A stretch of 64,000 nt of DNA. Source: Edaphobacter lichenicola (GTDB lineage Bacteria; Acidobacteriota; Terriglobia; Terriglobales; Acidobacteriaceae). The stretch is taken from contig NZ_JACHDY010000004.1 of the NCBI RefSeq assembly GCF_014201315.1, forward strand, positions 62,001-126,000. The letters run 5' to 3'. The first letter of the stretch is position 1. Each line of letters begins with the position of its first letter. The notes beneath the pieces are model-generated. The model did not search any database and was not told where the DNA came from. It worked only from the letters and a program-made list of their open reading frames with translations. The translations under genes were made by a program, and so were the position numbers. Positions 5,616 through 34,242 of the stretch are shown one piece after another.

Positions 5616-6720
5616 GAACATGCTCCCCAAGGGCCAGCGCCGCCGCACCGTAAAACCCGAGTACCGCGCCAGCCGCGGCGTAGAAGAGACCGCCCCGCCC
5701 CCAGTGCCCGTCCTTGAGTTCGACGAAGTCGAAGAAGACGCCGACGCAGTCCGCACCTTCCTCGCCGACCCTGCCGCCGCCAACCTCCGCCTCGATCTCT
5801 ACCTCGCCCAGGCCCTCCCAGACATCTCCCGCGCCCGCGTCCAGCTCCTCATCGAAGCCGGCCAGGTTCGTGTCGATGGCAACCCCGCCAAGCCCAAACA
5901 AAAGCTCCGCGGCGGCGAGTCCATCGAGATCGAAGGCTCCCCCCAGCCCGCGCCCCTCCACGCCATCCCCGAGGACATCCCCCTCCACATCCTCCACGAA
6001 GACAAGTACCTCGCCGTCATCAACAAGCCCGCCGGCATGATGGTCCACGCCGGAGCCGGGACAACGGACGACGTCCGCAACCGCGGCACCCTCGTCAACG
6101 CTCTCCTCTTCCACTTCGCCAAGCTCTCCGACGTCGGCGGCGATCTCCGCCCCGGTATCGTCCATCGCCTCGACAAGCTCACCAGCGGCCTCATCCTCGT
6201 CGCCAAAGACGACAGCACCCACCGCAAGCTCGGCGACATGTTCTCCCGCCGCCAGGTCACGAAAACCTACCTCGCCCTCCTCCACGGCCACCTCAAAAAA
6301 GACGACACCACCGTCAGCCTCCCCATCGCCCGCGACCTCATTCGCCGCACCCGCATGACCACTCGCCGCGCCGATGGCCGCACCGCCGTCTCCCACTTCC
6401 ACGTCCTCGAACGTCTAACGACTCCCCAGGGTCCCTTCACCCTCGTCGAAGTCCGCATCGAGACTGGCCGCACCCACCAGATCCGCGTCCACGCCCAATC
6501 CCTCGGCCATCCCGTCGTCGGCGACACCCTCTACGGCGCCCCCCACCTCATCCCCGGCCTCGCCCCCGCCCTCAACCTCGAGCGAAACTTCCTCCACGCC
6601 GCGCATCTCTCCTTCACCCACCCGCAGACCGGCAAACCGATGGATCTCGCCGCACCCCTCCCTGTCGAACTAGAGTCGTTTTTGCAAGCAATTCGCACCA
6701 ATTCGTCCACAATTGAGTAG
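5605..6720 (+). CDS. rluD: RluD-family 23S rRNA pseudouridine synthase
   Basis: 371 residues. An N-terminal S4 RNA-binding domain (about residues 50-110, NLRLDLYLAQALPDISRARVQLLIEAGQVRVDG) is followed by the RluA/RluD catalytic domain with HRLDKLTSG. Asp190 is the expected catalytic residue, and the nearby ETGRTHQIRVH motif is also present. Such enzymes isomerise uridines in rRNA helix 69 or related sites in the cytoplasm. A basic and acidic extension of ~45 residues precedes the S4 domain. ATG 5605 overlaps the end of the lgt-like gene, implying translational coupling. The exact target (RluD, RluC or RluA type) cannot be fixed from sequence alone. Confidence 0.88.
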   Translation: MPSKNMLPKGQRRRTVKPEYRASRGVEETAPPPVPVLEFDEVEEDADAVRTFLADPAAANLRLDLYLAQALPDISRARVQLLIEAGQVRVDGNPAKPKQKLRGGESIEIEGSPQPAPLHAIPEDIPLHILHEDKYLAVINKPAGMMVHAGAGTTDDVRNRGTLVNALLFHFAKLSDVGGDLRPGIVHRLDKLTSGLILVAKDDSTHRKLGDMFSRRQVTKTYLALLHGHLKKDDTTVSLPIARDLIRRTRMTTRRADGRTAVSHFHVLERLTTPQGPFTLVEVRIETGRTHQIRVHAQSLGHPVVGDTLYGAPHLIPGLAPALNLERNFLHAAHLSFTHPQTGKPMDLAAPLPVELESFLQAIRTNSSTIE

Positions 6721-12858: not shown

Positions 12859-14460
12859 ATGAATCAGACAGCCTTCGAACGATATGTCCTCAACCTCTTC
12901 TTTGTAGCTCTCGAGCCGTTCGTTCGAAGCCAGCCTGGCTGGCAAAGTAGGTCCGTTGAATCGCTCCTGAATGGCCACATTCTCTCCCAGTTCTATGAGA
13001 TGACGGAACGCTTGTTCTCCAGGCTCATCAGCCTCAACAGTCACGGGCGGTTGGGAGCCGACAAAGCCCGTCAGCAGGCGGCCGAAATCCTCACCAGCAA
13101 AAGGGAGATCCAGACGCCACGTTCGTTGGCCGAAGCTCTTGCAGGCGTCATCCTCTCCAACTCCCCGCGCCAGCAACAACAGCAACAGCAACAACAGCAG
13201 CAGCAACAGCAACAACAGCAACAGCAACAGCAGCAGCAGCAACAGCAGCAACAACAGCAACAGCAACAGCAGCAGTACCAGGACTTCAGCTTCACCGGCC
13301 TCCTCCCCACGGACCAGTTCGAGTTGGACGCCGTCGGCGCTTTCGGCGCGGGGCTGGATCTGCACCCTCCAGCCGCCGCCGCACCGCCACCGTCTGCCGC
13401 ACCGCCACCCCCGCCTGCACCGTCACGGTCTGTCGCACCGCCACCCGCGCCTGTTCCATTCAAGCTCCCCGACAACTGCACCGCCGTTCGGATCTTCTAT
13501 GCAACCGACCGCGAACGCACACGCGATAAGCTTCTGGGATTCAACTTCACCGCGAAAAGGTCGTCTGACGAGAACCTGCGCTACGGCCAATGCACGGTAA
13601 GCATTCCCGCTAAGCACAAGCTTGGCGAACTGGAATCTCCTTCCTTCTTCCGATTCGAGTTCCGGCCCAATCCTGAAAAACACATCGTGTTGCAGGAGAT
13701 CACCAGCCTCGAGGAAGATGCCTTCTTCGACAGGGTCAAGCAACGAGTCGACAGTTCGCCGGCCAAGGACGCCTTCGTCTTCGTTCATGGTTACAACGTC
13801 GACTTCGAGACCGCAGCTCGCCGTGCCGGTCAGTTCGCCTTCGATCTCGGCTTCATCGGAGCTCCTGTCCTCTACAGCTGGCCCTCCAACGGCACCTTCG
13901 AGGACTATGCCAGCGATGCCGCAAACGTTGGCTGGACGGCCAGTCATCTGGAACGCTTCCTGCGCCTTCTTGAGGCTCGCAGCGGCGCACAGAAGATTCA
14001 CCTCATCGCCCACAGCATGGGCAATCGCGCAGTATGCGACGCCCTCAAGGCGCTAAGCTACGACCGCACGGCGCAACCCCATCCCCTGCTCCACCACCTC
14101 GTGCTGGCCGCGCCCGACATCGATGCGGAGACCTTCCGCCAACTGGCATCGGCCCTCCACCAGGTCTCCGATCACATCACCCTCTACGCCTCTTCCAAAG
14201 ACAAAGCACTCGCGGCCTCGGCCAAGCTGCACAAATACCCAAGAGCAGGAGGCGTCCCGGTACTCGTCCTCCCAGACGTCGAGAGCATCGACGCCTCCGC
14301 CGTCGCAAGTGACTTCCTGGCGCACTCCTACTTTGCCGGAACCTACCCGCTTCTCTCCGACATCTACGAGCTCCTGTCCGACGACAAGCCCGCATCGAAG
14401 AGATTCGCTCTCCGATCCGCAACCGGCACCGACGGCGTCTACTACATGTTCAAGCCATAA
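12859..14460 (+). CDS. DUF900-type alpha/beta hydrolase with 35-residue poly-glutamine tract
   Basis: 533 residues. The N-terminal ~104 residues are an unrecognised helical domain. Residues 105-139 are 35 uninterrupted glutamines (13171-13275, mixed CAG/CAA). A Pro/Ala-rich linker with repeated APPP follows. Residues ~205-500 are a DUF900-like esterase domain: VFVHGYNVDFE (oxyanion region), then AHSMG nucleophile elbow (GxSxG type), and late Asp and His candidates in AAPDID and LAHSYF. No signal peptide, so probably cytoplasmic. AGGAG lies 6 bp before ATG 12859, which decides the start over the earlier in-frame GTG at 12832. Confidence 0.8.
   Translation: MNQTAFERYVLNLFFVALEPFVRSQPGWQSRSVESLLNGHILSQFYEMTERLFSRLISLNSHGRLGADKARQQAAEILTSKREIQTPRSLAEALAGVILSNSPRQQQQQQQQQQQQQQQQQQQQQQQQQQQQQQQQQQQYQDFSFTGLLPTDQFELDAVGAFGAGLDLHPPAAAAPPPSAAPPPPPAPSRSVAPPPAPVPFKLPDNCTAVRIFYATDRERTRDKLLGFNFTAKRSSDENLRYGQCTVSIPAKHKLGELESPSFFRFEFRPNPEKHIVLQEITSLEEDAFFDRVKQRVDSSPAKDAFVFVHGYNVDFETAARRAGQFAFDLGFIGAPVLYSWPSNGTFEDYASDAANVGWTASHLERFLRLLEARSGAQKIHLIAHSMGNRAVCDALKALSYDRTAQPHPLLHHLVLAAPDIDAETFRQLASALHQVSDHITLYASSKDKALAASAKLHKYPRAGGVPVLVLPDVESIDASAVASDFLAHSYFAGTYPLLSDIYELLSDDKPASKRFALRSATGTDGVYYMFKP
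13171..13275 (+). repeat. CAG/CAA trinucleotide repeat coding for Gln35
   Basis: 35 consecutive CAR codons, with CAG and CAA interleaved rather than a pure CAG run. The mixing should limit slippage, which suggests that the amino-acid tract, not the DNA, is maintained. Confidence 0.95.
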
Positions 14461-26293: not shown

Positions 26294-27058
26294 CTAATGG
26301 TGCGATGCGGCGAAAGCGTTCGTATAGATGAACTGCGATCCGACGACCAGAAGCCAGACCCAAAGAGCGAATCGCAGGGGCCTTTTGGGTATCCAGCGCA
26401 CAGTAACTGTTCCAAGAGCAACTCCCGCGAGTCCTCCGAGAATCAAGTGCCGAAGAAGACTCGAGTTAGTTCCATGAAAGAAGCCATGGGCACCACTACC
26501 GATGAGCGAGAGGAGAAAACCAAAGACAATATCCGTTCCAACTACTTGCGCCGGTGAGAGAGAAGTCAGGCTGAGCAGCGCCGCAGTGCCCAATGCTCCA
26601 GCTCCTGCAGAAGAAAATCCCACCTCAACTCCAAGGGGCAGCATCAGAAAAGGGAGTAGGCGGCTGCGATCCTTTGGTGGCGCTTCGGTTCGTTCTGGTC
26701 GAAAGGAGAAAAAAATCTGCCAGAGTGCTGTTAGAACCAATACGCCGCCCAGAAGACCGTTCAGCAGAAGTTGCGGGCCGTGGACGTCAAGGTGGCGGAG
26801 CACGAGCGAGCCAATAAGAACCCCCGGCAACCCGCCGACCAGCATAAGGCTAAGGACACGCCATGAAACCTGCTTGCGAGCGATCTGCGATGGCACCAGA
26901 ACAAGTTTGACCGCGGCAGAGAACATGAGCCCCGTGGCCACAGCCATCGGCGCAGGAACTCCAAGAAACAAGATGAGCAGCGGCGTTGTGATCGTGCCAG
27001 CGCCAACGCCGGTCAAGGCAATGAAGACGGCGATAATAAATCCGATGGCGTATTCCAT
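26294..27058 (-). CDS. TauE/SafE-family permease of the cys operon
   Basis: 254 residues, about eight membrane helices. IAVFIALTGVGAGTITTPLLILFLGVP and GFSSAGAGALGTAALLSLT are the family's paired signatures. It starts 33 bp after cysH, so it is very likely the last gene of cysD-cysN-cysH-tauE. A role in moving sulfate, sulfite or another sulfur anion fits this context but direction and substrate are inferred from neighbours only. Confidence 0.85.
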   Translation of the reverse strand: MEYAIGFIIAVFIALTGVGAGTITTPLLILFLGVPAPMAVATGLMFSAAVKLVLVPSQIARKQVSWRVLSLMLVGGLPGVLIGSLVLRHLDVHGPQLLLNGLLGGVLVLTALWQIFFSFRPERTEAPPKDRSRLLPFLMLPLGVEVGFSSAGAGALGTAALLSLTSLSPAQVVGTDIVFGFLLSLIGSGAHGFFHGTNSSLLRHLILGGLAGVALGTVTVRWIPKRPLRFALWVWLLVVGSQFIYTNAFAASHH

Positions 27059-27091: not shown

Positions 27092-27796
27092 TCACCGGTT
27101 TGGAGCGGCCTGAATGTGAATGCCGCACTCGACCTTGCGGCCAGCCCACCGACCAGAGCGTGGGTCGTTGGGATCTGTAGGGATCGAGGTGCAGGGTTTG
27201 CAGCCGATGCTGGTGTAGCCGACGTCGTAGAGCGGCAGGAGCGGAATATCGTAGAAAACGCATGCCTGCCAGATGTCCCGCGTAGTCCAGTCGGCGAAGG
27301 GGCTGAGCTTGCGTACGGTGATGCCGCTGGGCAGCGTGAAGTCTGCAATCTCTTCAAGCGCAGCGCGGCTACGCGCCTGTTCGCGGCGCAGACCGGTAAG
27401 CCAGATCCTGTAGTTGCCGACCGCAGAGAAAAGCGGCTCGACTTTGCGTAAGGCACAACAGCGATCGGGTGCGGTCTGGTAGAGCAGTCCATGCTCAAGT
27501 TCCTGTTCCGTAACTGTACGGGTTGGAAGAAGATTAGTAAGGTTCAGCTTCCAGTCGACTGCAATCCGGTCGCGGTAGGCATATGTTTCCGGGAAATGGT
27601 AGCCCGTGTCCAGAAAGAGGACCGGGATATCGGGCCACAGTTCGCGAGCCAGATGGAGGAGGAGAACATCCTCGGCCTGAAAGCTGCAGGTGAGGCAGGC
27701 ATCATTCTCGACAGGTGTTTCTGGCAACTCTCGGATGAGAAGTTCGCGGACGTGTGCAAGTTTGGCATCAGGAACGTGGGATTGGAGAATGGTCAT
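27092..27796 (-). CDS. cysH: Assimilatory APS/PAPS reductase, Fe-S type
   Basis: 234 residues. PP-loop-like adenosine phosphosulfate reductase fold with the Cys pairs DRCCALRKVEPL and GCKPCT, which in this family ligate a [4Fe-4S] cluster, and the C-terminal ECGIH with the catalytic Cys. The Cys pairs favour APS (not PAPS) as substrate: APS + thioredoxin gives sulfite + AMP. No cysC (APS kinase) is seen nearby, which agrees. Its ATG shares one base with the cysN stop codon (TAATG), so translation is probably coupled. Confidence 0.93.
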   Translation of the reverse strand: MTILQSHVPDAKLAHVRELLIRELPETPVENDACLTCSFQAEDVLLLHLARELWPDIPVLFLDTGYHFPETYAYRDRIAVDWKLNLTNLLPTRTVTEQELEHGLLYQTAPDRCCALRKVEPLFSAVGNYRIWLTGLRREQARSRAALEEIADFTLPSGITVRKLSPFADWTTRDIWQACVFYDIPLLPLYDVGYTSIGCKPCTSIPTDPNDPRSGRWAGRKVECGIHIQAAPNR

Positions 27797-29472
27797 TATC
27801 TGTTTCCTCCCGTAATGATTGCTTGGGCTTCGAGGAAGCGAAGGAGATCATCAACGTCGGAGAGAGCGATCTCCCTTTCACCAAAACGAACTGCCTTCCC
27901 CTCAGACGTATCGTGAGTCAAGACCAGGGCTCCACCAGCGGTAAGCGCGGCAATGGATTCCTCAGAGGGTAACTCTGGGCGAACGATGAAAGCACCCCGA
28001 AGAAAGAGAGTTCGTTCCACCACGTCGGCGAAATCAATTGGACTGAAGAGATGGATGTGCGCTCCAGAGTGGCCCCAACGCTCGCGTCGGTCAGCCTCTG
28101 TCACTACGTTTGTCGTTTTGGCAATCGTTTCAGCGCCGATAGACCGGATCATTCCTGCGGCGACAGTCAAATTAGTTACCGGATCGATCAGAACGAAGCT
28201 TCCGGTGATGCGGTTTGTGGAGTAGCTATCAACAAAGAGCGGCAGAACGGATTCAATCTCCACTAGGCCGATATCGTTAAACTTCAGTGTTTCGGCGGCG
28301 CCTTGCTCCAGGGTTTCTACGTCAAGGCGGTATCGAATATCAGTGATCAGAACCTGAACGGTCCTGCTGGTGTGCTTCAGTAAGTAGCGGCAAGCAAGGT
28401 TGAGAGGCTTTTCGTCCATCCAAACAAGGGAAGCAGTGAAGTTCCTTGTCGTGATCGCCGGCGATTCAGGAGCGACGATCAAGTCGCCTCTACTAATGTC
28501 CAGCTCATCTGTAAGGGTAAGAGTTATAGATTGGGGAGTCTGTGCCTGCGCAAGATCGCCATCGAAGGTAACGATGCTGCGCACGCGGCTCATTCGGCGT
28601 GACGGGAGCACCATGACGGTATCCCCGGGGTGGATTGTTCCCGCTGCGATCTGTCCGGAAAATCCACGAAAGTCCTGGTTGGGACGAAGGACTCGCTGGA
28701 CCGCGAAACGAAAAGGGTCAGCGACTCCGACCTCCGCCGCAGGGACCGATTCAAGCAGTTCGAGCAGCGAAGGCCCTTCGTACCAGGGCATGGCAGCGGT
28801 TGGGCGAACGACATTGTCACCGGTCAGCGCGCTGACTGGAACGAAGTAAAGGTGCGGCGGACGCATATCGCCAAGTTCATCAAAAAATGCGGTGAAGTCA
28901 GCACGAATCGCATTAAAAATCTCTTCGTCGTAGTTGACGAGATCCATCTTATTGACTGCGACGACGATGTGGCGAACGCCAAGGAGCGCGGTTATGCAGG
29001 CGTGGCGGCGAGACTGAGTGAGCACACCCTTTCGCGCATCGACAAGAACGATGGCAAGCGAAGCCGTTGAGGCGCCAGTAGCCATATTGCGGGTGTACTG
29101 CTCGTGGCCCGGTGTGTCGGCGATGATGAATTTGCGGTTGGCGTTGGAAAAATAGCGATAGGCGACATCGATGGTTATACCCTGCTCGCGCTCGGCACGG
29201 AGCCCGTCTGTCAGGAGTGCAAGATCGACGCTGTCTGCGCCCGTGGTGCCCTTGCCCGTGATCGAACGGACCTGATCTTCGTAGACACTCTGCGTGTCGT
29301 AGAGTAATCGGCCGATGAGGGTCGACTTCCCATCGTCGACCGAACCGGCGGTGGCGAAGCGAAGCAGATCGCGGGCATGCTCGTTCGCAAGAAAACTGGA
29401 AAGAGAAAACGTTGAGTCTTCTTCAAACTGTGTCTCCACGTCCAGCTTCAGAATGGATTCGCTGATAGGCAT
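27796..29472 (-). CDS. cysN: Sulfate adenylyltransferase subunit 1 (GTPase)
   Basis: 558 residues. G1 GSVDDGKST, G3 DTPGHEQYTRNM and G4 NKMD identify an EF-Tu-like GTPase that drives sulfate activation by CysD. The protein ends after the beta-barrel domains and lacks the CysC kinase found in NodQ/CysNC fusions. It begins directly after the cysD stop with no spacer. CysD-CysN makes APS from sulfate and ATP at the cost of GTP. Confidence 0.94.
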   Translation of the reverse strand: MPISESILKLDVETQFEEDSTFSLSSFLANEHARDLLRFATAGSVDDGKSTLIGRLLYDTQSVYEDQVRSITGKGTTGADSVDLALLTDGLRAEREQGITIDVAYRYFSNANRKFIIADTPGHEQYTRNMATGASTASLAIVLVDARKGVLTQSRRHACITALLGVRHIVVAVNKMDLVNYDEEIFNAIRADFTAFFDELGDMRPPHLYFVPVSALTGDNVVRPTAAMPWYEGPSLLELLESVPAAEVGVADPFRFAVQRVLRPNQDFRGFSGQIAAGTIHPGDTVMVLPSRRMSRVRSIVTFDGDLAQAQTPQSITLTLTDELDISRGDLIVAPESPAITTRNFTASLVWMDEKPLNLACRYLLKHTSRTVQVLITDIRYRLDVETLEQGAAETLKFNDIGLVEIESVLPLFVDSYSTNRITGSFVLIDPVTNLTVAAGMIRSIGAETIAKTTNVVTEADRRERWGHSGAHIHLFSPIDFADVVERTLFLRGAFIVRPELPSEESIAALTAGGALVLTHDTSEGKAVRFGEREIALSDVDDLLRFLEAQAIITGGNR

Positions 29473-30384
29473 TTAGAAGTAGCCCTCACGTTTTTTGAGT
29501 TCCATCGATCCTTCTTGATCGTGGTCGATCACACGATTCGCCCGCTCCGACGAACGGAAGGAAAGCAACTCTTCGATAATCTTGGGCAGCGTGTCGGCGT
29601 CCGAGCGAATCGCTCCGGTGCACGGACTGCAGCCAAGCGATCGAAGCCTCGAGAGCACCATCTGTGGTTGCTCCCCAGGCCATGCAACAAAGCTCTGTTC
29701 AACCGGAAGAAGCGCGCCTTCGCGTACATACATCGGCCGTTCTCTGGCGAAGTAAAGGTCGACGATGGGAATGTTTTCTTGCAGGATGTACTGCCAGACG
29801 TCCATCTCAGTCCAGTTCGAGAGAGGAAAGACACGGATCGACTCACCGGGGTGAATCCGCGAGTTGTAGAGGTTCCAGAGCTCAGGACGTTGGGCCTTCG
29901 GGTCCCATTGGCCAGCTTTATCGCGAAAAGAGTAGATGCGTTCCTTGGCGCGAGACTTCTCTTCGTCGCGACGAGCGCCACCAAACGCAGCATCAAAGCC
30001 GTAATGACTAAGGCCATCGAGCAGCGCCTGTGTTTTGAGCAGGCCACAGCACCGTTTGGTGTCGAGCGCGATCGGATTCGTTCCTGAAGCAATGGCAGGC
30101 TCGTTACGCCAGACAAGAAGTTCAGCTCCAACTTCAGCTGCCATGCGATCGCGAAACTCGATCATCTCGCGGAATTTGAAACCCGTATCGATATGGAGAA
30201 GAGGAAACGGGATCGGAGCGGGATAAAAGGCTTTTTGCGCAAGCCGCAGCATCACAGAGGAGTCTTTCCCGATGGAGTAGAGCATGACGGGACGTTCAAA
30301 CTCGGACGCAACCTCGCGAAGGATATGAATGCTCTCGGCTTCGAGAAGCTGTAGATGCGTAAGTGCCGGTGCGGCCAATGCCAT
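29473..30384 (-). CDS. cysD: Sulfate adenylyltransferase subunit 2
   Basis: 303 residues. The PP-loop [13 protein letters not shown] and the downstream [13 protein letters not shown] typify the ATP-binding small subunit of the ATP sulfurylase pair. It forms the first step of sulfate assimilation with CysN. GGAG lies 6 bp before ATG 30384; a TTG upstream at 30423 would add 13 residues without a ribosome-binding site. A 5-bp hairpin ACTCC/GGAGT (30390-30403) covers that ribosome-binding site, which could make translation initiation conditional. Confidence 0.94.
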
Positions 30385-30389
30385 GACAG

Positions 30390-30403
30390 ACTCCAGAGGG
30401 AGT
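30390..30403 (-). promoter_or_regulatory. Hairpin sequestering the cysD ribosome-binding site
   Basis: On the - strand, ACTCC (30403-30399) pairs with GGAGT (30394-30390) around a 4-base loop. The 3' arm is the ribosome-binding site of cysD. The stem is short, so its stability is modest. Confidence 0.45.
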
Positions 30404-30474: not shown

Positions 30475-30546
30475 CTAGCGCGTGAGTCGACACGCCTGCT
30501 CGACGTTGAAAGGGCAACAACAACGGAGCTGGCATGAGATGCGCAT
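30475..30546 (-). CDS. Cysteine-rich leader peptide candidate of the cysDNH operon (23 aa)
   Basis: From ATG 30546 the frame reads MRISCQLRCCCPF, then continues to a TAG at 30475. Five of 23 residues are Cys, with three consecutive Cys codons at 30522-30514. A -10-like TATTCT lies only 11 bp upstream, so the transcript would start near the ATG. The hairpin GCGTG/CACGC (30480-30495) overlaps the end of the ORF. The first operon gene begins 90 bp after its stop. The layout fits an attenuator sensing charged tRNA-Cys; no peptide evidence is available. Confidence 0.6.
   Translation of the reverse strand: MRISCQLRCCCPFNVEQACRLTR
30480..30495 (-). promoter_or_regulatory. Hairpin overlapping the end of the cysDNH leader ORF
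   Basis: Perfect 5-bp stem GCGTG/CACGC with a 6-base loop, 18 bases after the last of the three consecutive Cys codons and ending near the leader stop. A ribosome stalled at the Cys codons or released at the stop could change its folding. Confidence 0.45.
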
Positions 30547-30557
30547 TTTCTACCCCC

Positions 30558-30586
30558 AGAATAGCAAAGCCCAGAAGCAGAGGCAA
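30558..30586 (-). promoter_or_regulatory. Promoter for the cysDNH leader
   Basis: TTGCCT (30586-30581) and TATTCT (30563-30558) are separated by exactly 17 bp on the - strand. The predicted start of transcription is about 5 bp before the leader ATG. Confidence 0.5.
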
Positions 30587-30642
30587 ATCTTGGTCAGTCG
30601 GTTCGAGAGTCTGCTCACTCAAAAAGCGAGACTGAGATCCGG

Positions 30643-30670
30643 TTGAATAAAAAAGTCTCTGTGCTACTAT
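30643..30670 (+). promoter_or_regulatory. Promoter for the Oar/TonB-side leader
   Basis: TTGAAT (30643-30648) and TACTAT (30665-30670) are 16 bp apart. The leader ATG begins 7 bp after the -10 box, implying a leaderless or nearly leaderless transcript. It is divergent from the promoter at 30558-30586, with 56 bp between the two -35 boxes. Confidence 0.5.
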
Positions 30671-30677
30671 TTGGTTT

Positions 30678-30758
30678 ATGGCTCTGACCTTCCACTATGC
30701 CGTTACTGGCTGTTGTTGTTGTGAAGCAGGTCTGCGCCTCTCGCCGTCGAGAAGCTAG
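30678..30758 (+). CDS. Tetracysteine leader peptide candidate upstream of the Oar/TonB receptor (26 aa)
   Basis: From ATG 30678 the frame reads MALTFHYAVTGCCCCEAG and ends at TAG 30758. Four consecutive TGT codons occupy 30711-30722. The hairpin TCTCG/CGAGA (30739-30752) follows, ending just before the stop. This mirrors the - strand leader: promoter box close to the ATG, poly-Cys run, then hairpin at the end of the ORF. It is not homologous in sequence to the other leader, which suggests selection for the Cys codons themselves. Confidence 0.6.
   Translation: MALTFHYAVTGCCCCEAGLRLSPSRS
30739..30752 (+). promoter_or_regulatory. Hairpin at the end of the + strand leader ORF
   Basis: 5-bp stem TCTCG/CGAGA with loop CCGT, extendable past one mismatch by two further pairs, 16 bases after the Cys codon run. 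Confidence 0.45.
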
Positions 30759-30990
30759 TCTCCTCCAAAGCAAACTCACATCGACCAGTTGCTAGAGCGG
30801 GTTATCGTTCTTTCGAGAATTCAATGTATTCAAGAATTTCAAGGCAGTTCCGGCAGACCAGCATCATAGTTTCCTCTCTGGAAACGATGCCAACCTGTTG
30901 TCGACGCTAGCCTTTCCATTTCTCGAAACTTTATAAAGCCATTCCCCACCTACATGCGTGTCCTGCTCAAGGCGCTTGGAGATATCTTCA

Positions 30991-33900
30991 ATGTTCCGTC
31001 GATCAATTTTTCTCATAGCCCCATTTCTACTTGCAACGGTTTCGAGCGCCCAGATCGTAGGTGGGACCATTAGCGGTATTATCACGGATCCCGCGGGTGC
31101 AGTCGTTCCCGGTGCCCAGATCACGATCCGAAATCAAGAGACAGGCGGGGAGCGCCACCTCATCTCCGATGCAGACGGAGCATATGCTGCACCTTCGATT
31201 CCCATTGGTGTTTATGCGATCAACGTGGTGCGCGAGGGCTTCGCTCCGCAGACACGCGCCGGGATTTCTCTCACTGTAGGTCAAGCCACGCGCATCGATC
31301 TCACGCTGCATCCGGGTAATATCACAGAACAGATCACCGTTACGGATGTGCCCTCGTCTGTCAATCTTTCCACCCAGCAGATCTCTGGCCTCGTCAACGA
31401 GCGTCAAGTCAAGGACCTCCCGCTCAATGGCCGCTCTTACGATCAACTCATCACGCTGAATCCTGCGGCGGTGAACTACACAGCGCAACGCAGCGGATCG
31501 GTTGGGACCTCCAACTCCTCCGTGGGTAGTATGTTTGCGATCTCTGGTCGACGCCCGCAGGACAATCTCTATTTGCTCAATGGCATAGAATACACTGGCG
31601 CATCGCTGATCAACGTCACCCCGGGCGGTACCAGCGGTCAGCTGCTCGGCGTCGATGCGGTGCGTGAGTTCAACGTCGTCAGTGACACGTACGCGGCAAG
31701 TTATGGGAAGCGTCAGGGAGCCCAGATCTCCATCGTAACGGCCTCGGGCACCAATAACGTCCACGGTTCGGCGTACGAGTTTCTTCGTAACTCTTTCTTC
31801 GATGCACGCAATTATTTCGACCAGGCCCACATCCCGAACTTTCAGCGCAATAACTATGGTGCCTCTCTCGGCGGCCCCATTCGCACCAACCGGCTCTTTC
31901 TCTTTGGCAACTACGAAGGCTATCGGCAGAACCTCGGGATCACCGACGTCACGCTCGTTCCTGACGCTCAAGCTCGACAAGGTCTGCTTCCCGACCCGGC
32001 TAATCCGAGCGGACCGCGGAAAAACTATGGCGTCGCGAACGGAGTTAGAGCTTTGCTTAATCTCTGGCCCGCACAAAACGGCCCAGAGCTGCTCGATGCC
32101 AAGGGCAACCCGACCGGAATAGGTGAAGCCTTCTCCAATCCCACCCAGCACATCCGCGAGGACTTCGGCACCGCACGTTTTGACGCTAACCTCACCTCGC
32201 GCGACCTCCTATTTGCTGTCTACACCGCAGATGATTCTACCGCCAACACGCCGACGCAAAACCCCTTCTCGCTCATCAACGAATCGCTTCGTGAACAAGT
32301 CGTCAGCGTCCAGGAGCAACACGTCTTCTCCGCTCACCTGCTAAACACGGCCCGCGTTGGCTACTCTCGCGCTAGCTTCTTCTTCCTCGGCAATATTCCC
32401 TCTTCAATCCAGACCGACACTCCCGGCTTCCTCGCGGGCAAGCCGACTGGAGCTATCGTGATCGCGGGTTCTACCGCCTCCAACGGCTCGTCGCAGATCA
32501 CCGGCGCCGGTGCGAACGTTGGATCGAACAATGCCACGGCGCGCAATCTCTACACCTTCGACGACCACGTCTTCTATTCCCGCTCGCGTCACCAGATTGA
32601 GGCCGGAGTGTGGCTTCAGTCGCTTCAGTCGAACGATAATCTCGCCCAGAACCAGTACGGCCAAGCCTCCTTCGCTTCACTCACTACCTTCCTGCAAGGA
32701 ACTGTCAAAACCTTCACCGTCGTGCCCAATCCCACGCCGCTTAATTGGCGGAGCTTCATGAGCGCTGCTTACCTCGAAGATACCTGGCAACTTACGCCAG
32801 TGTTCGAGATTCGCGGCGGGATTCGCTTCGAATCCACCAATGGCTGGAACGAATCCCACGGTCGCGCCTCGCAATATGGCTTTACAAACGGCATCATCAA
32901 TTCCAGTCCAACGACAGGAACCTCCGCCCTGTCGGACAATCACGCGAAGATTCTCCCCGAACCGCGAGTCGGCATTGCATGGAACGTCTTCGGCAATGGC
33001 AAAACCTCGCTTCGCTCAAGTATTGGCCTTCATCACTCTCTTCTCGACAATCTCGACTATCGCCTCGACCAGGCGGCGCCCTACAACACAACTCTCTCCT
33101 ACTCCAACGTGCCTATTGCAAGTCCGATCAGCGGCGCACCAGGGCTCATCTCTCCGTCTAACGTTCAACCCGATATCTCGACTCCGAGCGTTGTCTCTTA
33201 CGCACTCAGCATCGAACAGCAGCTCGATCAAACGACCTCAATCACGGTTGGCTATGTAGGCTCTCACGGCTATCACCAGATCCTTTCGGAAGATCAAAAC
33301 GAACCGGGTTCCACCATCTGCTCTCCGAACTCAATCTGCCCTGTAGGCACATCGGCCGGAACGATTTACTACCCTACGACGGTCAAAGCGAACCCTCTGG
33401 TAGCGAACACCACGTCATGGGTCTCCGGCGGCTCGAGCAGCTACAACGCCGTCGAGGTTGATCTTCGCCGCAACCTGACACACGGGTTACAGCTTCGAGC
33501 CAACTACACCTTCGCCAAGAATCTCGACACTGGCTCTGCCTGGAATACAAGCGTCTCGGCCAACACTCCCGCGTTTGTTTCCTATCCGGCAAATCCTTCG
33601 TTGGACTACGGCCCCGCGGCGACTGATATTCGCCACCTCGCCGCCTTCAACGCCACATACGAACTACCCGTCGGCCGTGGCCACTTTCTTCTGTCCACCG
33701 TGTCGCCGTTGATCAACCACGCGGTATCGGGATGGAGTCTCAGCACCATCGCAACACTCCAAACCGGATTTCCCTTCAGCCCTCAACTCGGCTATAACCC
33801 TACCGGATCAGGTGACACCCGAAACCCCGTCCGCCCCAACCTCAATCCCGACTTCCATGGGAGGCTTTACGCTAGCGGCACCACCTCAACTCGCGTTGCG

Positions 33901-34242
33901 CAATTCTTCTCGCCTGCCGCCTTCTCTGCACCCGCCTATGGCACCATCGGGAACCTCGGCCGCGACACTCTTACTGGCCCAGGTTATGCAGACTGGGATC
34001 TCTCTCTCCTAAAATCTACCGCGCTGACTGAGGGGACCAGGCTCCAGTTTCGCGCCGAGTTCTTCAACGTTCTCAACCACACCAACCTGCAGACACCCAA
34101 CGAAGTCGTTTACACAAGCGGTCCTACTCAGGGCACAATCGCTAACCAGACTGCAGCCGCTGTTCAAAGCCCCACTGCCGGTGTCGTTACCGCAGCCTCT
34201 ACCAGTCGTCAGATCCAACTCGCGCTCAAGCTCATATTTTAA
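30991..34242 (+). CDS. Oar-like TonB-dependent receptor with carboxypeptidase-regulatory domain
   Basis: 1083 residues. A signal peptide (ends near LATVSSAQ) is followed by a CarboxypepD-reg-like beta-sandwich (~25-110, ISGIITDPAGAVVPGAQITIRN), a plug domain (~120-250, with ISGRRPQDNLYLLNG) and a large outer-membrane beta-barrel ending in the typical final strand RQIQLALKLIF. This type is abundant in Acidobacteria and is thought to import large or scarce substrates with TonB energy; ligand unknown. GGAG sits 9 bp before ATG 30991. The cysteine-rich leader ORF 232 bp upstream and the divergent cys operon hint at a sulfur-containing substrate. Confidence 0.9.
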   Translation: MFRRSIFLIAPFLLATVSSAQIVGGTISGIITDPAGAVVPGAQITIRNQETGGERHLISDADGAYAAPSIPIGVYAINVVREGFAPQTRAGISLTVGQATRIDLTLHPGNITEQITVTDVPSSVNLSTQQISGLVNERQVKDLPLNGRSYDQLITLNPAAVNYTAQRSGSVGTSNSSVGSMFAISGRRPQDNLYLLNGIEYTGASLINVTPGGTSGQLLGVDAVREFNVVSDTYAASYGKRQGAQISIVTASGTNNVHGSAYEFLRNSFFDARNYFDQAHIPNFQRNNYGASLGGPIRTNRLFLFGNYEGYRQNLGITDVTLVPDAQARQGLLPDPANPSGPRKNYGVANGVRALLNLWPAQNGPELLDAKGNPTGIGEAFSNPTQHIREDFGTARFDANLTSRDLLFAVYTADDSTANTPTQNPFSLINESLREQVVSVQEQHVFSAHLLNTARVGYSRASFFFLGNIPSSIQTDTPGFLAGKPTGAIVIAGSTASNGSSQITGAGANVGSNNATARNLYTFDDHVFYSRSRHQIEAGVWLQSLQSNDNLAQNQYGQASFASLTTFLQGTVKTFTVVPNPTPLNWRSFMSAAYLEDTWQLTPVFEIRGGIRFESTNGWNESHGRASQYGFTNGIINSSPTTGTSALSDNHAKILPEPRVGIAWNVFGNGKTSLRSSIGLHHSLLDNLDYRLDQAAPYNTTLSYSNVPIASPISGAPGLISPSNVQPDISTPSVVSYALSIEQQLDQTTSITVGYVGSHGYHQILSEDQNEPGSTICSPNSICPVGTSAGTIYYPTTVKANPLVANTTSWVSGGSSSYNAVEVDLRRNLTHGLQLRANYTFAKNLDTGSAWNTSVSANTPAFVSYPANPSLDYGPAATDIRHLAAFNATYELPVGRGHFLLSTVSPLINHAVSGWSLSTIATLQTGFPFSPQLGYNPTGSGDTRNPVRPNLNPDFHGRLYASGTTSTRVAQFFSPAAFSAPAYGTIGNLGRDTLTGPGYADWDLSLLKSTALTEGTRLQFRAEFFNVLNHTNLQTPNEVVYTSGPTQGTIANQTAAAVQSPTAGVVTAASTSRQIQLALKLIF

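Follow-up and report, generated by a model that had tools for sequence, protein, structure and literature searches.

What are two short, cysteine-rich open reading frames (ORFs) doing in the space between a cysteine biosynthesis operon and an outer-membrane receptor gene? The question is raised by the window analyzed here, a stretch of 64,000 nucleotides from Edaphobacter lichenicola, in which the divergent cysD-cysN-cysH-tauE operon and the gene for an Oar-like receptor are separated by a gap of 606 bp, measured from the ATG of cysD (30384) to that of the receptor (30991). An earlier note on this DNA had described two opposite-facing short ORFs in the gap, with three consecutive Cys codons on the minus strand and four on the plus strand, and both were found where it had placed them (Table 1). 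The gap is highly likely, judging from its sequence and that of its relatives, to hold cysteine-codon attenuators, one that would act on cysDNH-tauE and a further two that would follow each other on the receptor transcript.

Table 1. Positions of the genes, leader ORFs, and candidate signals (coordinates of the window unless a contig is given)
Feature	Position	Strand	Remarks
TauE/SafE permease gene	26294..27058	-	Last gene of the conserved operon
cysH	27092..27796	-	
cysN	27796..29472	-	
cysD	29473..30384	-	PAPS_reduct domain; starts operon cysD-cysN-cysH-tauE
Shine-Dalgarno GGAG of cysD	30391..30394	-	
cysD leader ORF	30475..30546	-	MRISCQLRCCCPFNVEQACRLTR; aligned with orthologues
Hairpin GCGUG/CACGC	30480..30495	-	End of cysD leader; no U run after it
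Hairpin GCUCCGUUG/CAACGUCGAGC	30498..30529	-	Cys codons of cysD leader in 5′ arm and loop; consensus fold, 13 sequences
Three consecutive Cys codons	30514..30522	-	cysD leader; run kept, flanks drift
-10-like box TATTCT	30558..30563	-	11 nt 5′ of cysD leader ATG; position kept in 13 relatives
-35-like box TTGCCT	30581..30586	-	cysD leader; 17-nt spacer; TTG invariant in alignment
Possible -35 box TTGAAT	30643..30648	+	Receptor leader 1; 16-nt spacer; poorly conserved
-10-like box TACTAT	30665..30670	+	7 nt 5′ of receptor leader 1 ATG (probably leaderless); same spacing in relatives
Receptor leader ORF 1	30678..30758	+	MALTFHYAVTGCCCCEAGLRLSPSRS
Hairpin GACCU/AGGUC + CAC/GUG	30686..30732	+	Around Cys run of receptor leader 1
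Four consecutive Cys codons	30711..30722	+	Receptor leader 1
Receptor leader ORF 2	30824..30910	+	MYSRISRQFRQTSIIVSSLETMPTCCRR; Cys codons 30896-30901
Shine-Dalgarno GGAG of receptor	30978..30981	+	
Oar-like outer-membrane receptor gene	30991..34242	+	CarboxypepD_reg + OMP_b-brl_4
Cys leader of sulfite reductase	G000:C1:80390-80488	-	MVSLTQLMPMACRTCCHDRVRRCLCLSCRLTR; locus L154; with terminator
Sulfite reductase gene	C1:78583-80304		Leader preceded by TTGACG-17-TATCTT-6-ATG
Cys leader of thioredoxin-like gene	G000:C1 about 6093-6143	+	MPMQHSFCCCRRSPLA; L340/L370; TAACCT six bases 5′ of ATG

The earlier note had also regarded such Cys runs as very rare by chance, which is borne out by dinucleotide shuffles of the gap. 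Among 3000 of these, a minus-strand run of at least three Cys codons arose in 1.2% and a plus-strand run of at least four in 0.07%, and both runs together were never obtained (0/3000). The conservation of the runs was then examined upstream of cysD at 54 loci, the one in the window included, from 62 genomes of the GTDB genus Edaphobacter. A short sense-strand ORF with CCC or a longer run lies within 300 bp of cysD at 43 of the 54 loci, which as relatives are not statistically independent, and a dense Cys cluster in such an ORF is present at 48; the antisense controls gave 1 and 2 of 54, and the shuffle controls 0.7% and 6%, respectively. TGY repeats occur frequently in this genome, on which ground the runs could be dismissed as accidents of TGT/TGC repetition in noncoding DNA, but the shuffles, the imbalance between sense and antisense strands, and the in-frame conservation at a fixed distance from promoter-like boxes all stand against it. 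A chance origin is already contradicted in silico, and its probability is close to nil. Elsewhere in the window, a long TGC/TGT trinucleotide repeat run is located at about 13173-13274 on the minus strand.

The earlier note had counted Cys runs kept in homologous gaps amid drifting sequence as support, and had named the loss of the runs in close relatives as evidence to the contrary; the 54 loci display the supporting pattern, and a few of them have no detectable leader. At least three types of cysD leader peptide can be distinguished, namely QLRCCC, ACR-CCCMAC-GCECCR, and ACCCCRMLPCPC-CCR, which have little in common beyond the Cys clusters. Beyond this set, a Cys leader is found at about two-thirds of 36 further cysD loci, most of which belong to other genera in the family, and at none of 56 non-acidobacterial loci, drawn from below the Acidobacteriota-rich head of the list. 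In one genome (locus L118, G021:C2), a further cysD-cysN copy, which has diverged, lacks a convincing Cys leader.

The boxes in front of the two ORFs were likewise compared. The earlier note had placed promoter boxes close to each ATG, and the distances of 11 nt (minus) and 7 nt (plus) are kept in relatives, but neither box is part of a strict sigma-70 match. Because a strict consensus scan of the gap gives neither a sigma-70 promoter nor a terminator, the promoter assignment is grounded in conservation: in 13 aligned cysD loci, a TTG and a TG-TA...T box stand at a constant distance from the leader ATG, and a distance of 7 nt separates the -10-like box from the ATG in most receptor loci of an alignment of 10. 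For the leaders considered here, the -10-like boxes are situated 6-11 nt 5′ of the ATG with conserved spacing, suggesting that the RNA starts at the AUG or within a few bases of it. For three acidobacterial genomes, about 13% of the genes have been predicted to be leaderless (PMC3160421).

On the receptor side, own Cys leaders are present at most receptor orthologues near cysD. The leader is kept at loci with both genes on one strand and the receptor upstream of cysD (L073, L078, and L079), and also where about 2 kb of extra DNA separates the receptor from cysD (L066 compared to L067). No CCC run was found upstream of 38 paralogous receptors in the same genome. In addition, a second leader ORF, missed by the earlier note, ends in TCCRR and is conserved, being present in related clades too; several relatives likewise have another Cys ORF closer to the receptor, with CCC at L066, L067, L074, and L075. 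The Granulicella-like clade shows the order of leader 1, a strong terminator, the second Cys ORF (L080, L084, L088, and L089), and the receptor, and the second ORF is absent from three loci of this clade (L081, L087, and L091). At L087 and L091, which are among these three, CCTGAGAG/CTCTCAGG just 5′ of the receptor can mask its Shine-Dalgarno sequence. The comparison strongly supports Cys-codon leaders ahead of sulfur genes, and the joint switch of cysDNH and receptor proposed in the earlier note is supported in part. Co-regulation of both is likely, because each is preceded by a sensor of this kind, also where they are separated. The divergent pair does not form one unit, however, since each leader moves with its own gene, the receptor is preceded by two of them in series, and the set extends to two or more additional operons.

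The first of these additional operons encodes sulfite reductase in the same genome. Its Cys leader recurs in 28 of 30 relatives by inspection and in 29 of 30 by a looser count, and the leader is followed in nearly all of them, by eye, by GCCCACT..AGTGGGC and a T run. A strict scan recognizes the intrinsic terminator in 21 of the 30, compared to 3% in shuffles. In an alignment of 24 sequences, the antiterminator has eight pairs changed on both sides, a number matched by none of 500 shuffles, and the covariation score of the terminator was likewise reached by 0/500; the antiterminator shares only two pairs with the terminator stem, so the two need not exclude each other. In its sequence, the sulfite reductase leader has the build of a transcription attenuator. 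A 1:2 hairpin further upstream in this leader is not supported, as it shows no covariation.

The second emerged from a pattern search of the genome based on the shared layout (-35, leaderless ATG, CC), which re-found the sulfite reductase leader and predicted a new one before a thioredoxin-like gene, subsequently supported by its recurrence in 27 of 30 relatives. Leaders of the same kind thus precede several operons in one genome, those of cysD, the receptor, sulfite reductase, and the thioredoxin-like gene, and, as in mycobacterial-type attenuators, a short ORF with a run of Cys codons stands before a cysteine or sulfur gene. The sequence data therefore indicate that this is very probably a multi-operon regulon of cysteine-codon attenuators in Acidobacteriota, with at least four such switches, through which the ribosome would respond to a lack of cysteine by switching on sulfur genes. 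Short Cys-rich ORFs can also be precursors of small proteins or peptide natural products, and on such general grounds the leaders might encode functional products of this kind. However, beyond the Cys clusters the peptides differ from clade to clade, an NCBIfam search with the peptides of the cysD leader and receptor leader 1 gave no match, and the same design precedes sulfur or thiol genes of four different kinds, all of which render this explanation very improbable. An Rfam search of the gap and of three loci returned nothing relevant.

How could such a leader control the genes behind it? In the attenuator reading, the RNA would start at the leader AUG or a few bases 5′ of it, and the leader would be translated immediately. 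With ample Cys-tRNA, the ribosome would pass the Cys codons and downstream expression would be shut off; with scarce Cys-tRNA, it would stall at the Cys run, an alternative RNA fold could form, and the downstream genes would be switched on. The output step appears to differ between clades. In the Granulicella-like sister clade, an intrinsic terminator follows the cysD leader at 9 of 12 loci, and in most of them late leader codons complement the 5′ arm of the terminator. By comparison, none of 15 window-type cysD loci has an intrinsic terminator, nor was one found for the receptor leaders of the window. Pairing of the leader with downstream RNA gives a mean z of about 0 over all cysD loci and is strong in a few sister-clade loci only.

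In the window clade, both leaders have a conserved hairpin that contains the Cys run. These hairpins are weak proof because their pairs are invariant or changed mostly on one side: the cysD hairpin shows weak covariation, with mostly one-sided G-U changes in the consensus fold of 13 sequences, and the one in receptor leader 1 is paired in 8/8 sequences but invariant, hence without covariation. With regard to the hairpins that the earlier note had drawn over or near both stop codons, the minus-strand one is conserved in the closest relatives, but the one near the plus-strand stop is not clearly so.

The sensor might also work as proposed with a purely translational output in the window, in which stalling of the ribosome would expose the ribosome-binding site, as it reportedly does in mycobacteria. 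The lack of a terminator in the window group is consistent with this, as is the ability of the cysD leader around codons 4-6 to pair with the start region. However, masking of a stalled ribosome in folding calculations hardly alters the accessibility of the ribosome-binding site (from 0.48 to 0.49 at 48 cysD loci and from 0.52 to 0.55 at 27 sulfite reductase loci). This leaves a general relief of a sequestered site unsupported and makes a purely translational output possible but doubtful. Downstream of the cysD leader, the RNA is rich in C and poor in G, with C and G fractions of 0.32 and 0.17 as against 0.25 and 0.24 in controls. Owing to this C-rich RNA and to the absence of a terminator, Rho-dependent termination and translational control are the likely candidates for the window output. 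Taken together with the conserved hairpins and the masked folding, these features leave the sensor well supported and place Rho slightly ahead of translation.

The same C-rich RNA brings CruR to mind. This is a protein of Bordetella (DUF2946) with 145 residues, predicted to be exported, which carries CXXC and RAPP motifs and senses copper; it is itself an upstream ORF with a Cys motif, heads an operon for a TonB-dependent transporter, and exerts its effect by way of Rho (PMC9426467). The Edaphobacter leaders could accordingly sense copper, another metal, or the redox state through a Cys-rich nascent peptide, and the two systems are alike in having a Cys-containing upstream ORF ahead of an outer-membrane transporter and a region with C in excess of G (PMC9426467); a receptor and a thioredoxin-like protein among the targets would also suit this explanation. 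On the other hand, the Edaphobacter-type leaders comprise about 14-45 codons with Cys runs, and the peptides from the window and the receptor orthologues, with 23-28 residues, are short and devoid of the RAPP arrest motif. The position and number of Cys residues drift, and two of the targets are sulfate-assimilation operons with cysteine as the end product. Metal or redox sensing is thus improbable, and a response to cysteine is preferred. On balance, Acidobacteriaceae probably possess a cysteine regulon sensed by the ribosome, in which at least four transcription units each begin with a leaderless Cys-codon ORF and two leaders in series gate the outer-membrane receptor. The sensor would have been kept in it while close relatives exchanged the output, with intrinsic terminators in some and a different mechanism in others.

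If this holds true, mycobacteria are not alone in sensing cysteine through the ribosome: a phylum abundant in soil does so too, and there the control ties sulfate assimilation and sulfite reduction to a thiol protein and an outer-membrane receptor. This link suggests, as a guess, that the receptor, one member of a family with dozens of copies in the genome, imports a sulfur source. The clades with and without a terminator would also offer a natural comparison of one sensor wired to different outputs. No acidobacterial case of cysteine-codon leaders was found in the open-licence literature.

Among known systems, attenuators of the trp/his type share with the sulfite reductase and sister-clade cysD leaders a leader with regulatory codons, a putative antiterminator, and an intrinsic terminator. 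They differ in that the codons are here those of Cys, the start is probably leaderless, and the two operons of the window itself have no terminator. The closest likeness is to the polycysteine attenuators of mycobacteria, which, as far as the papers citing them describe, are leaderless short ORFs with consecutive Cys codons before several sulfur operons (Canestrari et al. 2020, as cited in PMC9031893, PMC9094748, PMC13236596). The Edaphobacter leaders, probably leaderless as well, appear to resemble this design in their working, a likeness for which homology is not claimed. The differences lie in the phylum, in the intrinsic terminators with putative antiterminators found here for sulfite reductase and sister-clade cysD, and in targets that include a thioredoxin-like gene and a receptor with two serial leaders.
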